Shown piece by piece: positions 30-6,336 of a stretch of DNA of 6,336 nucleotides. A program made the position numbers and the translations under genes. Below the pieces are notes generated by a model. That model was not told the DNA's origin, made no database searches, and was given only the letters and a program-made list of their open reading frames with translations. Source of the stretch: Elusimicrobiota bacterium (GTDB lineage Bacteria; Elusimicrobiota; Elusimicrobia; UBA1565; UBA9628); assembly GCA_023249695.1 (NCBI GenBank), contig JAHFCD010000147.1, forward strand, positions 1-6,336, read 5' to 3'. Position 1 is the stretch's first letter, and each line of letters begins with the position of its first letter.

Positions 30-116
30 CGGTCTCGACGGGGCGTAGCTCAATTGGCAGAGCGCGTGGTTTGGGACCACGAGGTTCCGAGTTCGACCCT
101 CGGCGCCCCGAGACCG
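30..116 (+). other. Inverted repeat flanking the tRNA (leader/trailer stem)
   Basis: CGGTCTC at 30-36 is the exact reverse complement of GAGACCG at 110-116, so leader and trailer could extend the acceptor stem in the precursor. If the normal C39-G110 pair is kept, six flanking pairs remain (30-35 with 111-116), including pairing of discriminator A111. No U-tract terminator follows the tRNA before 160. Confidence 0.6.
39..111 (+). tRNA. tRNA-Pro, anticodon TGG
   Basis: The full cloverleaf can be read. The acceptor stem is CGGGGCG (39-45) with CGCCCCG (104-110), and A111 is the discriminator. The D-stem is GCTC/GAGC (48-51, 60-63). The anticodon stem is CGTGG/CCACG (65-69, 77-81), with loop TTTGGGA and anticodon TGG at 72-74. 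The T-stem is CCGAG/CTCGG around loop TTCGACC. The C1-G72 pair, A73 and G37 are identity features typical of bacterial proline tRNAs. UGG decodes CCA and, by wobble, other CCN codons. The 3' CCA is not encoded (GAC follows A111), so it must be added by nucleotidyltransferase. Confidence 0.97.
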
Positions 117-123
117 CCCGGTA

Positions 124-151
124 TTGACGACTCCGCGAAATCCGTTATCCT
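124..151 (+). promoter_or_regulatory. Promoter of the TPR gene, near-leaderless
   Basis: TTGACG at 124-129 (five of six matches to the -35 consensus), a 16-bp spacer and TATCCT at 146-151 form a sigma70-type promoter. The predicted transcription start is about 158-160, at or next to the ATG at 160. This argues that the in-frame TTG at 124 is the -35 box and not a start codon. Confidence 0.55.
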
Positions 152-159
152 TAAGGCGA

Positions 160-639
160 ATGCGAACGCTGCTGCTCCTCTCGCTCCTTTTCGCGGCCTT
201 GCCGGCCGCCGCCGCGCGCCGCTCGCTCTCGGTCGACGCCGGCTTCAAGAAGGCCGACCTGCTGATCGAGAAGGGTGAGTTCGCGAAGGCTCGCGAGGAG
301 CTCGACGAGGCGCTCGGCGAGCTCAAGCCCGACGATTCGCGGCGCCTACGCTACCACGAACGGACCGGGGCGTCCTGGCTGCGCGAGGGCAACATTCCCG
401 AGGCGCGCGCCGCCTTCACCGAGGCGCTCGTCACCCTCCAGCGCCTGAAGCTCGGCGACGAGTACGCGGCGAAGGCTTACACCGGCATGGGGCTTTGCCT
501 GCGCCGCGAGAAGAACGACAAGTACGCGCTCAAGTTCTTCAAGAAGGCCCTCGCCTATCGCCTCGATGAGGGGACGCGGATGTTCGTCGAAGATCAGATT
601 CGCGAGATCGAGGGCGAGCCGCCCGTGCCCGCGCGATAG
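160..639 (+). CDS. Exported TPR-repeat protein, about 159 aa
   Basis: This is a small helical-repeat protein, presumably a protein-protein interaction scaffold outside the cytoplasm; its partner is unknown. Residues 1-19 are a signal peptide (MRTLLLLSLLFAALPAAAA, with an AAA-type cleavage site). The mature part holds about three TPR-like helix pairs: one around residues 28-55 (FKKADLLIEKGEFAKAREEL), one around 63-95 (WLREGNIPEARAAFTEAL), and one around 102-130 (YTGMGLCLRREKNDKYALKF). A short charged and proline-rich tail follows. I chose ATG at 160 because it gives a clean signal peptide; the upstream TTG at 124 adds 12 residues and coincides with a -35 box. AAGG at 153-156 lies only 3 nt from the ATG, too close for a normal Shine-Dalgarno. 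The gene is convergent with the kinase gene, 30 bp apart. TPR assignment is likely; function is unassigned. Confidence 0.85.
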   Translation: MRTLLLLSLLFAALPAAAARRSLSVDAGFKKADLLIEKGEFAKAREELDEALGELKPDDSRRLRYHERTGASWLREGNIPEARAAFTEALVTLQRLKLGDEYAAKAYTGMGLCLRREKNDKYALKFFKKALAYRLDEGTRMFVEDQIREIEGEPPVPAR

Positions 640-647
640 CCGCTGCC

Positions 648-663
648 GCGCCATCAAGGGCGC
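648..663. terminator. Weak hairpin between convergent genes
   Basis: GCGCC-ATCAAG-GGCGC forms a 5-bp GC stem in the 30-bp gap between the TPR and kinase stop codons. It could act for both strands, but no T-tract follows on either strand, so intrinsic termination is doubtful. Confidence 0.2.
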
Positions 664-669
664 CGGGCG

Positions 670-2403
670 TCAGGCGAGCAGGCTTTTGAGGGAGTCGACC
701 AGCTCGGCCGCGTCGGCGACGCGCAGCTTCGGGTCGGGTGAGAGCGTCGCGGCGAACAGCAGCTCCACCTCCTTGGGCAGGCCGGGCGCTAGAAACTGCG
801 GTGGAGCGTACTTCATGCGTTCTTTCTGGGCCAGGAAGTCCGGACCGGAGAACGGGAGGGCTCCGGTCATCGCCTCGTAAAGGCAAACGCCCAAGGCGTA
901 GATATCTGAGGTCTTCGCGCAGCGTCCGAGATGCTGCTCCGGGGCCATGTAGGCGGGCGTTCCCGAGATGTCGAGGCTGGTCAGCCGCGTGACCGTTTCC
1001 TTGGCCTCGCGCGCGATGCCGAAGTCCATGACTTTCGCGTAGCCCCCGGCGTCGATCATGATGTTCGACGGCTTGAGGTCGCGGTGCAGAACGCGGCTGC
1101 GATGGGCGCACGCGATCGCCTCGCACACATAGGTGAACACTCTCACGCACTCGTCCAGCGGCAGGCGGCCGCGGCGTTTCAATACCGCCGACAACGGCTC
1201 GCCGTCGACGAAGTCGAAGACCAGGTACACGCCGCCGGCATCCTCGATGACCTCGTGGATGGCGACGATGTAGGGGTGCGACATATGCGAGATGATCCTC
1301 GCCTCGGTCAGGAACGCGTCGCGCGCGCCATCGGCGCGCGCGATCTCGGCGCGCATCACCTTGATCGCGACCCGTCGCCCGAGGGAGTGATCGAAGGCCT
1401 CGAGCACGATGCCCATGCCGCCCTCTCCTATTTTCCCTTTGAACTCATACCGTCCGCGGAGCAGTCCGGAGAACGGAGGGGAAGCCTCGGGGCGCGGCAG
1501 CTCGAGAATGGACGGCATTGATTGAATTCCCGGCGCGCCGGGCCGCGTCCACGAGCCGGCGAAGGGAGCGCGGCTCGACGGTGACGGGCGGCTGCGGCCG
1601 AAGAAGTAGGCGGCCGCGCCGAGGGCGAGAAGCAACGCCAACCCCAATGCGGCCAAGGCGGCTGCGCCGGCCGCGGGCGGTTGCGGTCCCGGCGCATCGC
1701 GCGGTTGGGCCGGCGCCGGCGCGGCGGCCGGCCTGGCCTCGGCGAGGGGGGCGGCCTGGGGCGCGGGGGCGGGCTCGGGCGCGGCGCGAAGAAGGGGAAC
1801 GGGACCGGGCGGGGCCTCGGGGGGGCCGACGGCGGAGGAGGGCACGACGAACCGCGCGAGGCGCATCGCCCCATTCTTATCCACGCGCGCCCACATTCGT
1901 CCCGGTGGAGGCGTCCCGAGCCCGAGCGAGGCATGGTCCTCGGGGCACGACCCCGAGGTTTCGCCGTAGTATTGTCCGGAAGCGTCGCGTTCCATCAGCA
2001 CGAGGTAAGTGCAGTAGCGCCCGCCCGGCGGACGCGGAGCCGGGACTTCGCGGCCGCCGTCTTCGCGCGGTCCGTCCGGAAAGCGCTCGGGGGCGATCCG
2101 TCCGTCCGTCTGGATGCGAATCGCGGGCAGCGATGCGCCGTCGGGCAGAGGACCGTCGTACTCGAATCCGTTCGGGCCCCGGCGCAGAATTCGCTCGGCC
2201 TTATAGACGTGCGGGAGATTCGCCGCCGGAAGCCAGAGCGTTCCTCGCGGCGGCGGGGGGAGCTGATCGGGGTATCGGGCCGCCTCCGGGCAAGGCGCGG
2301 GCCGCGGCTCGCTCAGCCAGTCGGAGTAGAAGCACGGCTCGGGGCCCTGCGCCCGCGCCGCCGAAGCCGCCAGCAACAGCATCAAAATCCAGCCGAAGCG
2401 CAT
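670..2403 (-). CDS. Receptor-like transmembrane Ser/Thr protein kinase (Hanks type)
   Basis: This 577-aa protein should transfer phosphate from ATP to Ser/Thr of cytoplasmic targets in response to an outside signal. Domains in order: signal peptide 1-18 (ARA before Q19); exported region about 19-195 with Cys24, 38, 131 and 153; Ala/Pro-rich stalk about 196-245; membrane helix about 247-268; Ser/Pro-rich juxtamembrane linker 269-318; kinase 319 to about 575. The kinase has the Gly loop GEGGMG (326-331), Lys348, Glu367, HRDLKPSN (440-447), DFG (460-462), APE (487-489), Asp500 and Arg561, so it looks active and of RD type. The activation loop (471-483) has Thr and Ser candidates for autophosphorylation. 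Kinase-last topology is the reverse of PknB-like enzymes. The outer domain is not recognised. The ATG at 2403 fits both the signal peptide and a promoter 5 nt upstream. Confidence 0.95.
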   Translation of the reverse strand: MRFGWILMLLLAASAARAQGPEPCFYSDWLSEPRPAPCPEAARYPDQLPPPPRGTLWLPAANLPHVYKAERILRRGPNGFEYDGPLPDGASLPAIRIQTDGRIAPERFPDGPREDGGREVPAPRPPGGRYCTYLVLMERDASGQYYGETSGSCPEDHASLGLGTPPPGRMWARVDKNGAMRLARFVVPSSAVGPPEAPPGPVPLLRAAPEPAPAPQAAPLAEARPAAAPAPAQPRDAPGPQPPAAGAAALAALGLALLLALGAAAYFFGRSRPSPSSRAPFAGSWTRPGAPGIQSMPSILELPRPEASPPFSGLLRGRYEFKGKIGEGGMGIVLEAFDHSLGRRVAIKVMRAEIARADGARDAFLTEARIISHMSHPYIVAIHEVIEDAGGVYLVFDFVDGEPLSAVLKRRGRLPLDECVRVFTYVCEAIACAHRSRVLHRDLKPSNIMIDAGGYAKVMDFGIAREAKETVTRLTSLDISGTPAYMAPEQHLGRCAKTSDIYALGVCLYEAMTGALPFSGPDFLAQKERMKYAPPQFLAPGLPKEVELLFAATLSPDPKLRVADAAELVDSLKSLLA

Positions 2404-2408
2404 GCGCC

Positions 2409-2437
2409 AGTGTAGGCGTCGTCCCGCGCGCTGTCAA
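2409..2437 (-). promoter_or_regulatory. Strong promoter of the kinase gene, leaderless
   Basis: On the minus strand, a perfect TTGACA (2437-2432), a 17-bp spacer and TACACT (2414-2409) are followed after 5 nt by the ATG at 2403. Transcription should begin at or within about 2 nt of the start codon, and no Shine-Dalgarno is present. The end of the MITE-like element lies 10 bp upstream of the -35 box, leaving the promoter intact. Confidence 0.75.
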
Positions 2438-2446
2438 TGGAGAATG

Positions 2447-2467
2447 TCTCCAAGTTCATGGGGTTTT
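2447..2467 (+). repeat. Left terminal inverted repeat
   Basis: This 21-bp end begins TCTCCAAGTTCA and runs into GGGGTTTT. It pairs with 2573-2593 with three mismatches (its positions 7, 13 and 21). A second shared block, CGGGCG, follows inside both ends at slightly different distances (2473-2478 on this side). Confidence 0.65.
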
Positions 2468-2480
2468 GAATCCGGGCGAT

Positions 2481-2515
2481 TGAACGGCATGGCGCCGAAG
2501 GCGCCATGCCATTCA
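2481..2515. repeat. 16-bp stem hairpin inside the MITE-like element
   Basis: The arms 2481-2496 and 2500-2515 pair over 16 bp with one mismatch (position 5) around the 3-nt loop GAA; the core is GGCATGGCGCC. There is no T-tract on either side, and the location upstream of two divergent promoters argues against a terminator. It is better read as part of the element. Confidence 0.8.
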
Positions 2516-2572
2516 AATAGAGATATCCTCGTTCGATTATCTTGAGATAAACCTGTCTCCCATCCGCCGCCC

Positions 2573-2593
2573 GAAACCCCGTGAACATGGAGA
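2573..2593 (-). repeat. Right terminal inverted repeat
   Basis: Read on the minus strand this end begins TCTCCATGTTCA and runs into GGGGTTTC, matching the left end at 18 of 21 positions. Confidence 0.65.
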
Positions 2594-2621
2594 GAATGTC
2601 GGCGAACCACCCGCCCGCGCG

Positions 2622-2651
2622 TTGAGCGAAGGAAGGCCGCCGTGCTAAGAT
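2622..2651 (+). promoter_or_regulatory. Promoter of the hydrolase gene, leaderless
   Basis: TTGAGC (2622-2627), an 18-bp spacer and TAAGAT (2646-2651) preceded by an extended -10 TGC (2643-2645) form the promoter. The GTG start lies 6 nt after the -10 box, so the predicted transcription start is the GTG itself. The nearest purine-rich sequence (GGAAGG at 2631-2636) is too far upstream to be a ribosome binding site. Confidence 0.6.
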
Positions 2652-2657
2652 GAGCCG

Positions 2658-3551
2658 GTGGCCGCCGCATTTCTCGTCCTACTCGGATTTTCGGCCGTTC
2701 TCGTCTCGTTGAGCGTCTATACCGCTTATCGCATCATGACGGGCAACGGCTGCATACCGCTGACGGTGCGCCCCGAGCAATACGGCCTGCCTTACGAGCC
2801 CGTGGCCTGCCGCACGAGCGACGGGCTGACGCTCAAAGGCTGGTTCGTGCCCGCCGCGTCTCCCAGCGCGCGCACGATCCTGCTCTGCCACGGCTGGAGC
2901 GCGAACAAAGGCGAGATCCTCAAGGCCACGCACGAGCTGGCCGGCCGGGGTTTTAATCTTCTCTATTTCGACTTCCGGCATTGCGGCGAAAGCGAGGGGA
3001 GCCTCCTCAGCGTCGGCTACTGGGAGGCGCGGGACTTCGACGCCATGTTCGCATTCCTCCGATCCTTCCGGCCCGACGACCGCTACGCCGTCTACGGGAT
3101 GTCGATGGGCGGCATGGTGGCGTTCTCCGGCGTCGCGCGCCACCCCGGCTTCGTCGCGGCGGCCATCGAGAGCACCTTCCGCTCCCACGACGAGGCCGTC
3201 AGCCGCTACCTCCATTTCCAAAGCGGCGTCCCCTATTTTCCGCTGATCCCGCTGATTCTGCTCTGCCTGCGCGTCCGCCTGGGCGGCGACCCTCAGCTCA
3301 ACAGCCCGGAAAGCCTCGCTCCGGGCTTCAAGGTTCCGCTCCTGGGGATATGCGGCGACGATGACCGCCTTTCTCCGCCCGAGCTGATCACGGCGTTGTT
3401 CGCGCGCGTGCCTTCGCCCCACGAGCTCTGGCTCGTGCCCGGCGGCGGCCACGCGCGCTGCGCGCAAGCGGCCGGCGCCGCCTACGCGGACCGCCTGGCT
3501 CGATTCTACGGGGCCGGCTTCGCGGCCGCCGAGAAGAGCTTGTCGGCCTGA
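2658..3551 (+). CDS. Membrane-anchored alpha/beta hydrolase
   Basis: This 297-aa serine hydrolase of the alpha/beta-fold superfamily probably cleaves an ester, thioester or peptide bond; its substrate cannot be told from sequence. An N-terminal membrane helix (about residues 2-24) anchors it, with the catalytic domain probably outside the cytoplasm. Visible motifs are HG (78-79, in CHGWSANKGE) for the oxyanion region, the nucleophile elbow GMSMGG with Ser149, the probable acid Asp236 in GDDDRLSPPE, and His265 in PGGGH. A hydrophobic stretch at 192-204 probably belongs to the cap. The HGWSANKGE motif resembles the YqkD/BAAT-like group of hydrolases. I chose the GTG start because it supplies the membrane anchor and matches the promoter; the next in-frame Met (residue 27) would lose the anchor. 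Its last 46 bp overlap the opposing gene's 3' end. Confidence 0.92.
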   Translation: MAAAFLVLLGFSAVLVSLSVYTAYRIMTGNGCIPLTVRPEQYGLPYEPVACRTSDGLTLKGWFVPAASPSARTILLCHGWSANKGEILKATHELAGRGFNLLYFDFRHCGESEGSLLSVGYWEARDFDAMFAFLRSFRPDDRYAVYGMSMGGMVAFSGVARHPGFVAAAIESTFRSHDEAVSRYLHFQSGVPYFPLIPLILLCLRVRLGGDPQLNSPESLAPGFKVPLLGICGDDDRLSPPELITALFARVPSPHELWLVPGGGHARCAQAAGAAYADRLARFYGAGFAAAEKSLSA

Positions 3552-5041
3552 TCGGAGAGGCGGACCATTCGCGAAGCGGAGGTCCGGGCCTTGACCAGGT
3601 CCGCCTCGTCGCCCTTGAGCGCGTCGAAGAAAACTTCGAGCTCCGCGGTCAGCGCGGTCACCAAAGGTCCGAGCGCGTCGCCGTGACGGCGCGCCGCCAG
3701 CACGGCCGTCGACTCCGGGTCGTCCTTGAAAAGGCGGCTCCAGAGGCCGCGCTTGGGCGGGGCCGGACCGTCGAGGACGGGCACGACGAAGATCGCGTGG
3801 GGCAGGTTGACCGCTTCCCAGTGGCCGCCCGGTATCACGGGCCAGGTCTCGCCGGTCAAGCGGTAGGATTTGAGGCCGCGCAGGCGCCGCAGCTGGAAGA
3901 GGTTGATCTGCGCGCTGCGCAGCACGTCGGCGAACTGGTAGGCGTCGGCTCGCGCGTCCGACAGGGCCTTGGCTCCGCCGTCGCGCCGCGCCCGCAGGAG
4001 GTCGTGCAGCACGGTCTTCGCGTGAGTGCTGATCTCCTCGAAAGACATGTAGTCGACGTAGGACGACGCGTGCGGGGCGATCGCGCGTCCGCTATAGGCG
4101 ACCAAGGAGCCGTGGAACAGGCTGAGGTCGCCGCGACGCAGGCGCTTGGTGAACGCGGCGTGGCGCGATTCATGGAGGATCGCCTCGAACGCGTCGTCGC
4201 GCCCGAAGTCCGGGAGGAACAGGACCTGCTGAGTGGAGTTGTAGGCGGCCACGCCGCCGTCCGTGCGGTCGGGCGCGTATTCGACCGCGGAATCGAAGTT
4301 CTTTTGCAGGTCCCAGGCGAGCCGGTTGAGGCGGTGGCCCTGGCGCTCGGGGATGATCTTGAGCACGGGCGACTGGAAGCCGTCGGCTCGCGTCCGCTCG
4401 CCGCGTTCGACGGCGATGCCGGCGCTCCTCGCCAGGCTCTCGGCGGCCGAGATCAAGGTCTGCAGCTCCTCCACGCCAGATTTCGCCCGGGGGACGATCA
4501 GCGCGGAGCGGTAGCGATAGACTTCCGCGGAGCCGAAGTGGAACGGCGCGCCGGGGCGGAGGTATTCCGCGGATTGATGATCAGACTTGGAGGACTCCCC
4601 GAACATCCGTTTCGTAAATTCGATGAGGTTCCCGATCGGAGCGTCCTCGAGGTTCTGGGGCGAATCGCCGAGGACGGCTTTCGCCGAGGCCATGGGGGCC
4701 GGCGCGGGCCGGATCGCGGCCGTGCGCGCGGGCGAGATATAGGACGCCGGCAGGGCCGCCGGCAGCGGGCTTTGAGCGGCTATGGCCGGCGCGAACGGCG
4801 CGGCCGCGAGGAGGGGCGTCGGGGCGAGCGCGACGGGCATGAGTCCGGGCGCGCCGACGAGGGATGGGGCGGCGAGGTTGAGCGTGATGAGCTGGGGCGC
4901 GCCGCCGGTCATCAAGGGCGAGAGCGTAACGGACGGCGAGGCGGTGTTGGGGCCGGCGGCCTCAACGACGCCGGCGCGGGTTTGCGCGCGCAGCACGGGC
5001 GCAGCCAACAAAAGGAGGGCGGCGAGGGGGAGGGGCCTCAC
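3506..5041 (-). CDS. Exported putative zinc metalloprotease (HExxH)
   Basis: This 511-aa protein is probably a secreted or envelope metallopeptidase; its substrate is unknown. Residues 1-19 are a signal peptide (VLRA before Q20). Residues 20-120 are an Ala/Pro/Leu-rich low-complexity tract, likely a disordered spacer. The folded part starts near 130. HESRH at 290-294 in AILHESRHAAF fits the zincin HExxH motif (ligands His290 and His294, catalytic Glu291). About 41 residues later, SFEEISTH (333-340) offers Glu335, Glu336 or His340 as a third ligand. The C-terminal 200 residues show no motif I recognise. The start is GTG, supported by the signal peptide and by TATACT 6 nt upstream; no Shine-Dalgarno is visible. 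The family is not one I can name. Protease activity is inferred from the motif alone. Confidence 0.85.
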   Translation of the reverse strand: MRPLPLAALLLLAAPVLRAQTRAGVVEAAGPNTASPSVTLSPLMTGGAPQLITLNLAAPSLVGAPGLMPVALAPTPLLAAAPFAPAIAAQSPLPAALPASYISPARTAAIRPAPAPMASAKAVLGDSPQNLEDAPIGNLIEFTKRMFGESSKSDHQSAEYLRPGAPFHFGSAEVYRYRSALIVPRAKSGVEELQTLISAAESLARSAGIAVERGERTRADGFQSPVLKIIPERQGHRLNRLAWDLQKNFDSAVEYAPDRTDGGVAAYNSTQQVLFLPDFGRDDAFEAILHESRHAAFTKRLRRGDLSLFHGSLVAYSGRAIAPHASSYVDYMSFEEISTHAKTVLHDLLRARRDGGAKALSDARADAYQFADVLRSAQINLFQLRRLRGLKSYRLTGETWPVIPGGHWEAVNLPHAIFVVPVLDGPAPPKRGLWSRLFKDDPESTAVLAARRHGDALGPLVTALTAELEVFFDALKGDEADLVKARTSASRMVRLSDQADKLFSAAAKPAP

Positions 5042-5047
5042 GTCCCT

Positions 5048-5077
5048 AGTATAGCCCCGCCGCGGGCGATCCGCCAG
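5048..5077 (-). promoter_or_regulatory. Promoter of the metalloprotease gene, leaderless
   Basis: On the minus strand, TATACT (5053-5048) lies 6 nt before the GTG start. A weak -35 candidate CTGGCG (5077-5072) is 18 bp upstream. The predicted transcription start coincides with the GTG. Confidence 0.55.
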
Positions 5078-5108
5078 AGCGGAGCCGTCGCGCGGGAGCC
5101 GCCGCGGT

Positions 5109-5121
5109 AACCGTTCCGGTT
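5109..5121. repeat. Short dyad between divergent genes, possible operator
   Basis: AACCG-TTC-CGGTT is a perfect 5-bp inverted repeat overlapping the palindrome GGTAACC (5106-5112). It lies between the two divergent promoters, upstream of each. It may be a protein-binding site, but chance is not excluded. Confidence 0.25.
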
Positions 5122-5123
5122 TC

Positions 5124-5190
5124 TAAAATCGCGGGAAGCTGCTCCGGCTGATTTGGAGCCCATGGCCCCGCCCTCGTGGGGCTTTCGATT
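5124..5190 (+). ncRNA. Possible small RNA unit in the divergent gap
   Basis: TAAAAT at 5124-5129 resembles a -10 box, with a predicted start near 5136. The following sequence could fold as GCTCC/GGAGC (5141-5145, 5155-5159) and then the GC hairpin at 5164-5183 followed by TTTCGATT. There is no recognisable -35 box or extended -10, so the case is weak. Confidence 0.2.
5164..5183 (+). terminator. Terminator-like hairpin upstream of the last gene
   Basis: GCCCC (5165-5169) pairs with GGGGC (5178-5182), with an added G-T pair, around an 8-nt loop, and is followed by a short interrupted T-rich tail. It lies before the promoter of the gene at 5227, so it could shield that gene from read-through. 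The stem and tail are short for a strong terminator. Confidence 0.3.
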
Positions 5191-5220
5191 CTGTCGGGCG
5201 CCGCGTCCAGCTGCTAAACT
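5191..5220 (+). promoter_or_regulatory. Extended -10 promoter of the last gene, leaderless
   Basis: TGC-TAAACT, an extended -10 with its hexamer at 5215-5220, lies 6 nt before the ATG at 5227. A weak -35 candidate CTGTCG (5191-5196) is 18 bp upstream. The predicted transcription start is at the ATG. Confidence 0.6.
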
Positions 5221-5226
5221 GACGGC

Positions 5227-6336
5227 ATGAATTCATTTATGCCCTTTCTCTTGACCCTCGTTCTTCCCGGAGCCGCTTGGAGCCAGCAGGCCATGGTCCG
5301 CGTCGTTGCCGTCGGGGACGCTCCCGCGATCCGGTTCTCGGTTCCCGTCGCCGCCGCGTCCTCGTTGTCGGCGGCGCCCGCCTCCTTTGCCGCCTCCGTC
5401 GCGGCCGCTCCAGCCGTCGTTTCGGCGCCGATGCCGAGCCTCTCTCCGGCCCCGCTTCCGGCTTCACCCGCTGCATCGGCGCCAATCCTGCCGGCGGCGG
5501 CGAAGGCGGGGATTCCGCTCCCCGCCCCGACGGGCGGAAACGCCGGCCGGAACCGAGCGGCCCGCGTCGTTCCAGCGGCCGCATCCGGGTCCGTTCTCCC
5601 GAGCGGCGTCCCGACCGCGCGTATTGAGGCAGCCAACGGCTCGTCATTTGCCCGTATCCAGTCGCACGACGCCTCGACCGGCTTCGACGAAAGGGAGGCC
5701 GCGCTGAACGTCCTGTTCGAGAACTCCGCGCGTCACGGCGCCGCGGCGGTCGAGGCGCCGGACTCCGACCGTTCCGCGAAGGCTCCCGCGCTCGCGCCGG
5801 CCGCCTTCGACGCGCCGCGGATCGTCGTGATCGTTTCCTTGCGCGATCCCGGCTCGCCGCAGGCCCTCGACGCGCTGACCGACAATTGGAAAGGCGCGTA
5901 TGGCTTTCAGCGCGACTACAATCACCGGCTGGCTCCGGCGAAGGAGGGGCGCATCACGATCTGGGGCCTGATCCCTGAATCTCAGAAAATGAGATTGTCG
6001 CTCAGCGGGGAAGCCGAGCAGGTTTTTCCCTTGTTCGGTATGAAGATCGAGGACGTCGTCACCACGCCTTATCAGCGGCCGGTCGCAGGCGAGAGTCTGT
6101 TCCGGCGGGGGATGCGTTTCATCAACGAGAAAAGCGAGGGGGCGGCTCTTCTCGTCGCGCTCGTGCCCACTTTCGCGGTCATGGCGGCGCTCTTCGGCCC
6201 GTTGCTCGTCGCCGGCAAGCTCCTTCCGAGCGTGCTCGGCACGGCGGTATTGGGCGGGGGCCTATCCCTTATCGGCCTCGTCTCGCCGTTCGACGCGTTG
6301 ACGCGCTGGATCGCGGCCCCGGTCCGGGCCGCGATG
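5227..6336 (+). CDS. Exported membrane protein with Ala/Pro-rich tract, 3' end beyond window
   Basis: The frame is open from ATG 5227 to the window end (370 codons, no stop), so the gene is cut by the window edge. Residues 1-18 or 1-19 are a signal peptide (hydrophobic core PFLLTLVLPG, then AAWSQQ). Residues about 40-125 are Ala/Pro/Ser-rich low complexity. A short helical piece (ALNVLFENSARH, 159-170) is followed by a small alpha/beta-looking domain, about 198-275, with strand-like IVVIVSL and RITIWGLIP. Two hydrophobic segments, about 306-332 and 335-353, look like membrane helices, so the preceding domain would be outside and held at the membrane. I recognise no enzyme motif and assign no function. 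The layout (signal peptide, Ala/Pro tract, folded domain) matches the divergent metalloprotease gene. The start is supported by the signal peptide and the -10 box 6 nt upstream. Confidence 0.85.
   Translation, partial: MNSFMPFLLTLVLPGAAWSQQAMVRVVAVGDAPAIRFSVPVAAASSLSAAPASFAASVAAAPAVVSAPMPSLSPAPLPASPAASAPILPAAAKAGIPLPAPTGGNAGRNRAARVVPAAASGSVLPSGVPTARIEAANGSSFARIQSHDASTGFDEREAALNVLFENSARHGAAAVEAPDSDRSAKAPALAPAAFDAPRIVVIVSLRDPGSPQALDALTDNWKGAYGFQRDYNHRLAPAKEGRITIWGLIPESQKMRLSLSGEAEQVFPLFGMKIEDVVTTPYQRPVAGESLFRRGMRFINEKSEGAALLVALVPTFAVMAALFGPLLVAGKLLPSVLGTAVLGGGLSLIGLVSPFDALTRWIAAPVRAAM

Follow-up and report, generated by a model that had tools for sequence, protein, structure and literature searches.

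Start-adjacent -10-like boxes and predicted leaderless genes in a member of the Elusimicrobiota

Five genes and their upstream boxes

The window analyzed here is a stretch of 6,336 nucleotides (nt) that makes up an entire contig (C125; JAHFCD010000147.1) of the Elusimicrobiota metagenome-assembled genome (MAG) GCA_023249695.1, hereafter G000 (2.97 Mb, 587 contigs, 73% complete). It carries five protein genes, encoding a TPR protein (gene 1), a Ser/Thr protein kinase-like protein (gene 2), an alpha/beta hydrolase (gene 3), and two proteins without an assigned function (P4 and gene 5). All five genes are promoter-proximal, since they form two divergent pairs and one gene behind a transfer RNA (tRNA) (Table 1). 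Each start codon is closely preceded by a hexamer of the form TANNNT, which resembles the -10 element of a bacterial promoter. These boxes, and the leaderless mRNAs that they predict, are the subject of this report.

An initial annotation, made from the sequence alone, had described, for each of the five starts, a TANNNT box ending 5 to 8 nt upstream and no usable Shine-Dalgarno (SD) site, and both descriptions proved accurate. If d denotes the number of nucleotides by which a box ends before the start codon, a box at d 5 to 8 precedes 5/5 gene starts and 0/214 of the other ATG and GTG triplets on both strands, which together hold 25 TANNNT hexamers. With a background of ~0.7% of candidate starts having a box at any given position (2.52 of 365), five of five would be expected by chance with a probability of ~2e-8. 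The longest exact run of the SD core within 20 nt upstream is AAGG, located 3 nt before ATG 160, and the other four starts have a run of 3 nt or none. Upstream alternative starts were considered and rejected: reading upstream, four of the five genes reach a stop without meeting another in-frame start, and the one candidate for gene 1, a TTG 36 nt upstream of ATG 160 (in frame in 6/9 relatives), coincides with the -35 hexamer. Genes 1 and 2 have a good -35 at a proper spacer (TTGACG-16-TATCCT and TTGACA-17-TACACT), while a TGC extension of the kind found in extended -10 elements precedes the boxes of genes 3 and 5.

Table 1. Genes and promoter-like elements of the window, in order of position
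Feature	Position	Strand	Remarks
tRNA-Pro (TGG)	39..111	+	ARAGORN; just 5' of the first protein gene; tRNA-Pro (TGG) upstream in 8/9 related loci
-35-like TTGACG, gene 1, spacer 16	124..129	+	TTGACG or TTGAC visible in 8/9 relatives, not in L206
-10-like TATCCT, d = 8 to ATG 160	146..151	+	TANNNT at d 8-10 in 8/9 relatives
Gene 1, TPR protein, signal-peptide-like N-terminus	160..639	+	nine relatives used, 46-73% identical
Gene 2, Ser/Thr protein kinase-like, signal-peptide-like N-terminus	670..2403	-	PF00069, E = 9.4e-49
-10-like TACACT, d = 5 to ATG 2403	2409..2414	-	window scan only
-35 TTGACA (6/6), gene 2, spacer 17	2432..2437	-	window scan
-35-like TTGAGC (4/6), gene 3, spacer 18	2622..2627	+	window scan
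-10-like TAAGAT with TGC extension, d = 6 to GTG 2658	2646..2651	+	TAA is the in-frame stop before gene 3
Gene 3, alpha/beta hydrolase, N-terminal transmembrane-like stretch	2658..3551	+	PF12146, E = 4.3e-17
P4 gene, signal-peptide-like N-terminus, function unassigned	3506..5041	-	no Pfam/NCBIfam family; 50 proteins including P4 itself in the relative search
Short frame ending ...PLWRIARGGAILGT-stop	5038..5082	-	its TGA overlaps GTG 5041; resembles the leftover 3' end of the gene upstream of P4 in G016, G008, and G002
-10-like TATACT, d = 6 to GTG 5041 (P4)	5048..5053	-	4/6 relatives have the box
-35-position hexamer CTGGCG (3/6 to TTGACA), P4, spacer 18	5072..5077	-	relatives have identical or similar bases, which also code there; by eye
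-35-position hexamer CTGTCG (weak, 3/6), gene 5, spacer 18	5191..5196	+	window scan
-10-like TAAACT with TGC extension, d = 6 to ATG 5227	5215..5220	+	TAA is an in-frame stop
Gene 5, signal-peptide-like N-terminus, function unassigned	5227..6336	+	runs off the contig; no Pfam/NCBIfam family

Near-start boxes in related genomes

To place the window in context, we counted TANNNT boxes upstream of start codons in 60 G000 contigs plus the window, in 400 kb from G010, a sister genome of the same genus, and in samples of 16 other phylum members. These represent the genus or family (G018, G016, and G020), the order (G024, G028, G033, and G025), the class (G036, G037, G082, G069, and G071), and other classes (G078, G072, G049, and G060). 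Genes were called with our own simple coding-model caller, with the window included among the G000 sequences. Because the caller trimmed three window N-termini and left gene 5, truncated by the contig end, uncalled, every plausible in-frame start was tested and none was preselected, which also avoids circularity. Peak statistics are Poisson values for 18 genomes, uncorrected.

A comparison of upstream TANNNT and SD profiles, proposed in the initial annotation, was run on these samples and yielded the anticipated TANNNT peak at d 6 to 7, but an SD peak coexists with it. In G000, 29 in-frame ATG or GTG codons had a box at this distance where 5.0 were expected (P = 2e-13), and in G010 there were 50 against 4.9. 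Within the genus or family the counts were 11 against 2.2 (G018), 7 against 1.5 (G016), and 12 against 2.9 (G020); they were 5 against 1.9 (G024) and 5 against 0.8 (G025) in the order, and 9 against 2.9 (G036), 10 against 5.0 (G037), and 14 against 3.5 (G082) in the class. One genome of another class, G072, had 10 against 2.3, with its peak at d = 7 (8 sites; stretches L182-L185). The same script returned 13 against 2.2 for 150 kb of Deinococcus radiodurans MP1, a species with established leaderless genes, and 4 against 6.8 for 150 kb of Escherichia coli K-12. At d = 6, a box that begins with TAA or TAG might simply be an in-frame stop at the boundary of an open reading frame; this artifact was ruled out because G000 and G010 peak at d = 6 and 7 and not at 3, 9, or 12. 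Boxes close to the start codon are a real and common feature of these genomes.

Base preferences were examined at 108 starts with such a box, here termed TA-led, from five genomes, with 352 TANNNT hexamers at d 12 to 54 as controls. The fifth box position was A in 60/108 TA-led boxes and in 124/352 controls, and a TGN extension preceded 38/108 (35%) and 57/352, respectively. The base immediately before the start codon was C at 78/108 TA-led starts, compared with 182/352 control boxes and 546/1164 other starts. The commonest TA-led boxes were TAGAAT (15/108) and TATAAT (12/108). With these favored hexamers, the TG extension, and the C at -1, the boxes resemble -10 elements of the sigma70 type. 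The complete lack of SD sites at TA-led starts (0/108) is forced by geometry, as a box at d 6 to 7 leaves no space for one, and is not evidence.

The spread of the feature was assessed across 247 genomes sampled from the phylum by whole-genome counts of TANAAT-N6-ATG and, for comparison, TANAAT-N16-ATG. G000 contains 83 of the former and 8 of the latter. The totals were 978 versus 115 in 11 genomes of its genus, 1131 versus 513 in 14 other genomes of its family (the ratios of three own-family genomes lie between 0.95 and 1.49), and 322 versus 72 in family f2 (4 genomes). Ratios were lower in 64 f7 genomes (1.65-fold) and 35 f8 genomes (1.59-fold), and the counts were nearly equal in 76 f10 genomes (10484 versus 10364). 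An N6/N16 ratio of at least 1.5 was found in 97/142 genomes of the same class versus 1/105 of other classes, a figure that is a floor for the other classes, as the count covers d = 6 only and misses genomes that prefer d = 7; G072 itself has a ratio of 0.83 despite its d = 7 peak. Among the sites listed for the AT-rich f7 genome G059, T precedes the ATG in 12/16 N6 sites versus 4/16 N16 sites (by eye), hinting at leaderless starts in f7 as well. Overall, the feature seems to be a trait of the lineage, most pronounced in this genus and evident across much of its class.

We also looked for the boxes of gene 1, gene 3, and P4 in relatives, and two of these three (those of gene 1 and P4) recur. 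The gene 1 box is kept as TANNNT at d 8 to 10 in eight of nine relatives and reads CATCCT in the ninth, G010. The P4 box, TATACT, lies exactly 6 nt before GTG in the window and G016, before TTG in G008, and before CTG in G002 (by eye), so that box and 6-nt spacing are constant but the start codon varies. In G026, from another family, TATAAT lies 7 nt before the P4 ATG.

The surroundings of the P4 start differ among these genomes. In G002, G016, and G008 (loci L193, L194, and L195), the P4 start overlaps the stop of a conserved gene that reads ...HVTLFTEPGG-GIALY...PWRLD--GAILG-x-stop, and the box falls within the last codons of this gene, spelled GCT-ATA-CTG. Among three sampled genomes of the genus, ATA accounts for 1 to 5% of Ile codons and GCT for 2 to 4% of Ala codons. 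This rare-codon spelling suggests that the box is under selection as DNA, although the three genomes are related and count as at least one event. The window lacks the gene (64 open codons) but has, at the same place, a 14-codon frame ending ...LWRIARGGAILGT-stop, which reads as the leftover 3' end of a lost gene with the box still carried. The wobble position of the upstream gene's last codon doubles as the first base of the P4 start, which may account for the drift of the start codon. In G010 and G013, the P4 ATG lies directly against, or overlaps, the stop codon of another gene, which is FGE-sulfatase-like (domain match just below the Pfam cutoff). Only in the window and G026 did the stretch read contain no overlapping upstream gene before P4. 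We had considered a simple contrast in which the box would accompany P4 genes with a promoter of their own and be missing from those that lie behind another gene, and dropped it because G016, G008, and G002 have both the box and such a gene.

Several further properties of the window genes are recorded here. All five encoded proteins start with a signal-peptide-like or membrane stretch (by eye). Among promoter-proximal genes of five genomes, secreted or membrane-like N-termini were somewhat commoner when the gene was TA-led (38/95 versus 56/218; P = 0.015, uncorrected), and a separate count of signal-like N-termini gave 44/101 for TA-led and 183/589 for other genes; the tie between leaderless genes and secreted proteins is weak. 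Gene 1 and P4 are convergent neighbors in G010, G002, G008, and G016, with matches that end at most 10 nt apart, and in the window the kinase and hydrolase genes separate them. Genomes of the order hold up to dozens of matches to the window kinase (39 in G028 and 38 in G033).

Predicted leaderless initiation beside SD-led genes

We interpret the five TANNNT boxes as predicted sigma70-type promoters whose transcripts would start at, or within ~3 nt of, the start codon, yielding leaderless mRNAs that are translated independently of an SD site. We put the probability of this interpretation at roughly 0.84. On this view, RNA polymerase would initiate there, and ribosomes would begin on the 5'-terminal NTG without an SD site. 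In the genus, this leaderless mode would operate beside SD-led initiation, with the first genes of transcripts often leaderless and operon-internal genes mostly not.

A number of observations weigh against this interpretation. A -10 element near a start codon predicts initiation there and is no proof of it. At least four matches to TTGACA were found upstream of 16/101 TA-led boxes, 12/49 control boxes, and 4/101 TA-led boxes at a wrong spacer; any -35 preference of TA-led sites is thus at best weak and hardly above chance. For gene 1, the distance of 8 nt (8 to 10 in relatives) predicts a leader of 1 to 3 nt and not of zero. The comparison with relatives covered the boxes of gene 1, gene 3, and P4. 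Of the three, the P4 box is absent in 2/6 relatives (G010 and G013), and that of gene 3 was seen in 1/19 alignable relatives (~40% identity), as a weak TTG case; 10 further loci gave no alignment, and the 19 relatives are not known to represent the same place. Because the P4 start overlaps the stop of the upstream gene in G016, G008, and G002, P4 could also be transcribed from upstream in these box-bearing relatives. There was no peak at d 6 to 7 in two order samples (G028, 3 against 1.6; G033, 2 against 0.9), two class samples (G069, 1 against 2.0; G071, 13 against 11.7), and three samples of other classes (G078, 1 against 4.3; G049, 6 against 4.7; G060, 6 against 6.3). Finally, the gene caller was a simple one.

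Some of these points would suit a different account, which we consider unlikely: the genes could be expressed from transcripts that have short leaders or start further upstream and are translated, as in Bacteroidota, by a route that is A/U-rich and needs no SD. The lack of SD sites at the five genes fits such a route, as do the leaders of 1 to 3 nt that are likely for gene 1 and its relatives, and the overlap of P4 with an upstream gene in three relatives fits upstream transcription. However, the signal found here is a peak at d 6 to 7 that shows the base preferences of a -10 element along with C at -1, not a general enrichment of A and U. In addition, an SD peak is present in these genomes, whereas Bacteroidetes are reported to lack SD sites in general (PMC3155529).

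The interpretation as start-adjacent promoters leaves the question of how many genes are involved. The initial annotation had read the five boxes as leaderless starts and had further suggested that this is the organism's default mode of expression. This reading is partly right: near-start boxes are common and leaderless starts likely. Its further suggestion, that most genes of the organism are leaderless, we regard as highly improbable. All five window genes do carry a box, which would have a probability of 0.4% (0.33^5) if a third of promoter-proximal genes did so, and leaderless promoters that lack TANNNT could push the true figure up. Yet this 5/5 overstates the rate because all window genes are promoter-proximal, which is likely why each has a box, and the window was picked because the pattern showed there. 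The TANNNT excess at d 5 to 8 amounts to 17% of called genes in both G000 and G010 and to 24% of promoter-proximal genes. This estimator may run low, since it gives 12% of genes for D. radiodurans MP1, for which the published figure is nearly a third. In G000, 23/69 promoter-proximal genes have a box (control, 6.3) versus 5/74 operon-internal genes (control, 1.9); the corresponding values in G010 are 45/158 (control, 6.9) and 9/123 (control, 0.7).

The SD system is also in evidence. The SD peak comprises 112 sites against 38.0 expected in G000 and 138 against 63.7 in G010. The 16S rRNA gene of G000 is absent from the MAG; among five genus members, 5/5 full-length 16S loci have a 3' end of ...GGATCACCTCCTTT, with an intact anti-SD, which rules out loss of the SD system. 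An anti-SD was seen in 8/12 16S loci of the phylum, the other four of which were viewed on the plus strand only, and a published anti-SD table includes Elusimicrobia and Endomicrobia (PMC10783764). Collectively, these data argue that leaderless starts are likely a common second mode in the genus, alongside SD-led genes, and concern roughly a sixth of genes.

The idea that AT-rich intergenic spots yield TANNNT by composition, and that hits were picked, is refuted by the counts: TANNNT is a loose pattern and the AT-rich relatives G071 and G060 are not enriched, but none of the 214 other ATG or GTG triplets in the window has one of its 25 hexamers at d 5 to 8, and the sharp peak recurs in other contigs and genomes, including the 83-versus-8 whole-genome count.

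A broader evolutionary scenario can be offered only tentatively, and we rate it slightly below even odds. Leaderless expression may be an early trait of one Elusimicrobiota class that was amplified in high-GC families and is mostly missing from sister classes. An extended -10 element (TGN-TA-G/T-AAT) would replace the -35, and the promoter would fix the 5' end of the transcript. Such a promoter could persist within the final codons of a gene upstream and outlast that gene, as at P4, while the start codon drifts at a fixed spot among GTG, TTG, and CTG. The phylum would then present a gain-or-loss series of leaderless translation, from which one might learn what turns a lineage leaderless.

Relation to known leaderless systems

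TA-led genes were defined by Zheng et al. in 2011 (PMC3160421), who found leaderless genes concentrated in archaea, Actinobacteria, and Deinococcus-Thermus, with a share of around 20% in Actinobacteria. As in the genomes studied here, their TA-led genes have TANNNT ~10 bp upstream in high-GC genomes, are confined to operon-proximal genes, and occur alongside SD-led genes. The present genes likewise show a -10 signal at a fixed distance, no SD at the five window genes, and concentration at first genes, with P4 in three relatives as an exception. A difference is that Elusimicrobia are not among the leaderless groups of that study, whose main text does not contain the name.

The Deinococcota offer a close parallel in the -10 motif adjacent to open reading frames of Zhong et al. 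(2025; PMC12340547), in which TANNNT lies 6 to 7 bp before the start. There the motif occurs together with a GGAG motif, and its promoter function was tested with reporters. TACACT is the commonest form in Deinococcota, with nearly a third of genes carrying the motif, whereas TAGAAT and TATAAT lead here, with an excess of ~17%, although the estimators differ. Mycobacterium tuberculosis (PMC3898074) is similar in having a TANNNT -10, no conserved -35, and C as the commonest base at -1 of transcription starts; 26% of its genes with a primary transcription start site are leaderless. It differs in that TGN accompanies 7% of its TANNNT promoters, compared with the 35% of TA-led sites reported above. 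As to CarD, a candidate helper of such promoters, the tabulation of PMC4593161 lists Elusimicrobia (3 genomes) without it.

A literature search, which did not extend to supplements and closed papers, found no report of leaderless genes in Elusimicrobiota among the papers listed. What we describe is a known phenomenon in a group for which no earlier report was found. The data suggest that gene starts in these MAGs are better called with a TA-led model, as callers trained on SD sites may misplace them. If the interpretation is true, a class with a high-rate signal set against mostly signal-free sister classes would make the phylum a natural comparison for the drivers of leaderless translation, with GC content, operon use, promoter type, and initiation factors as the candidates to compare.

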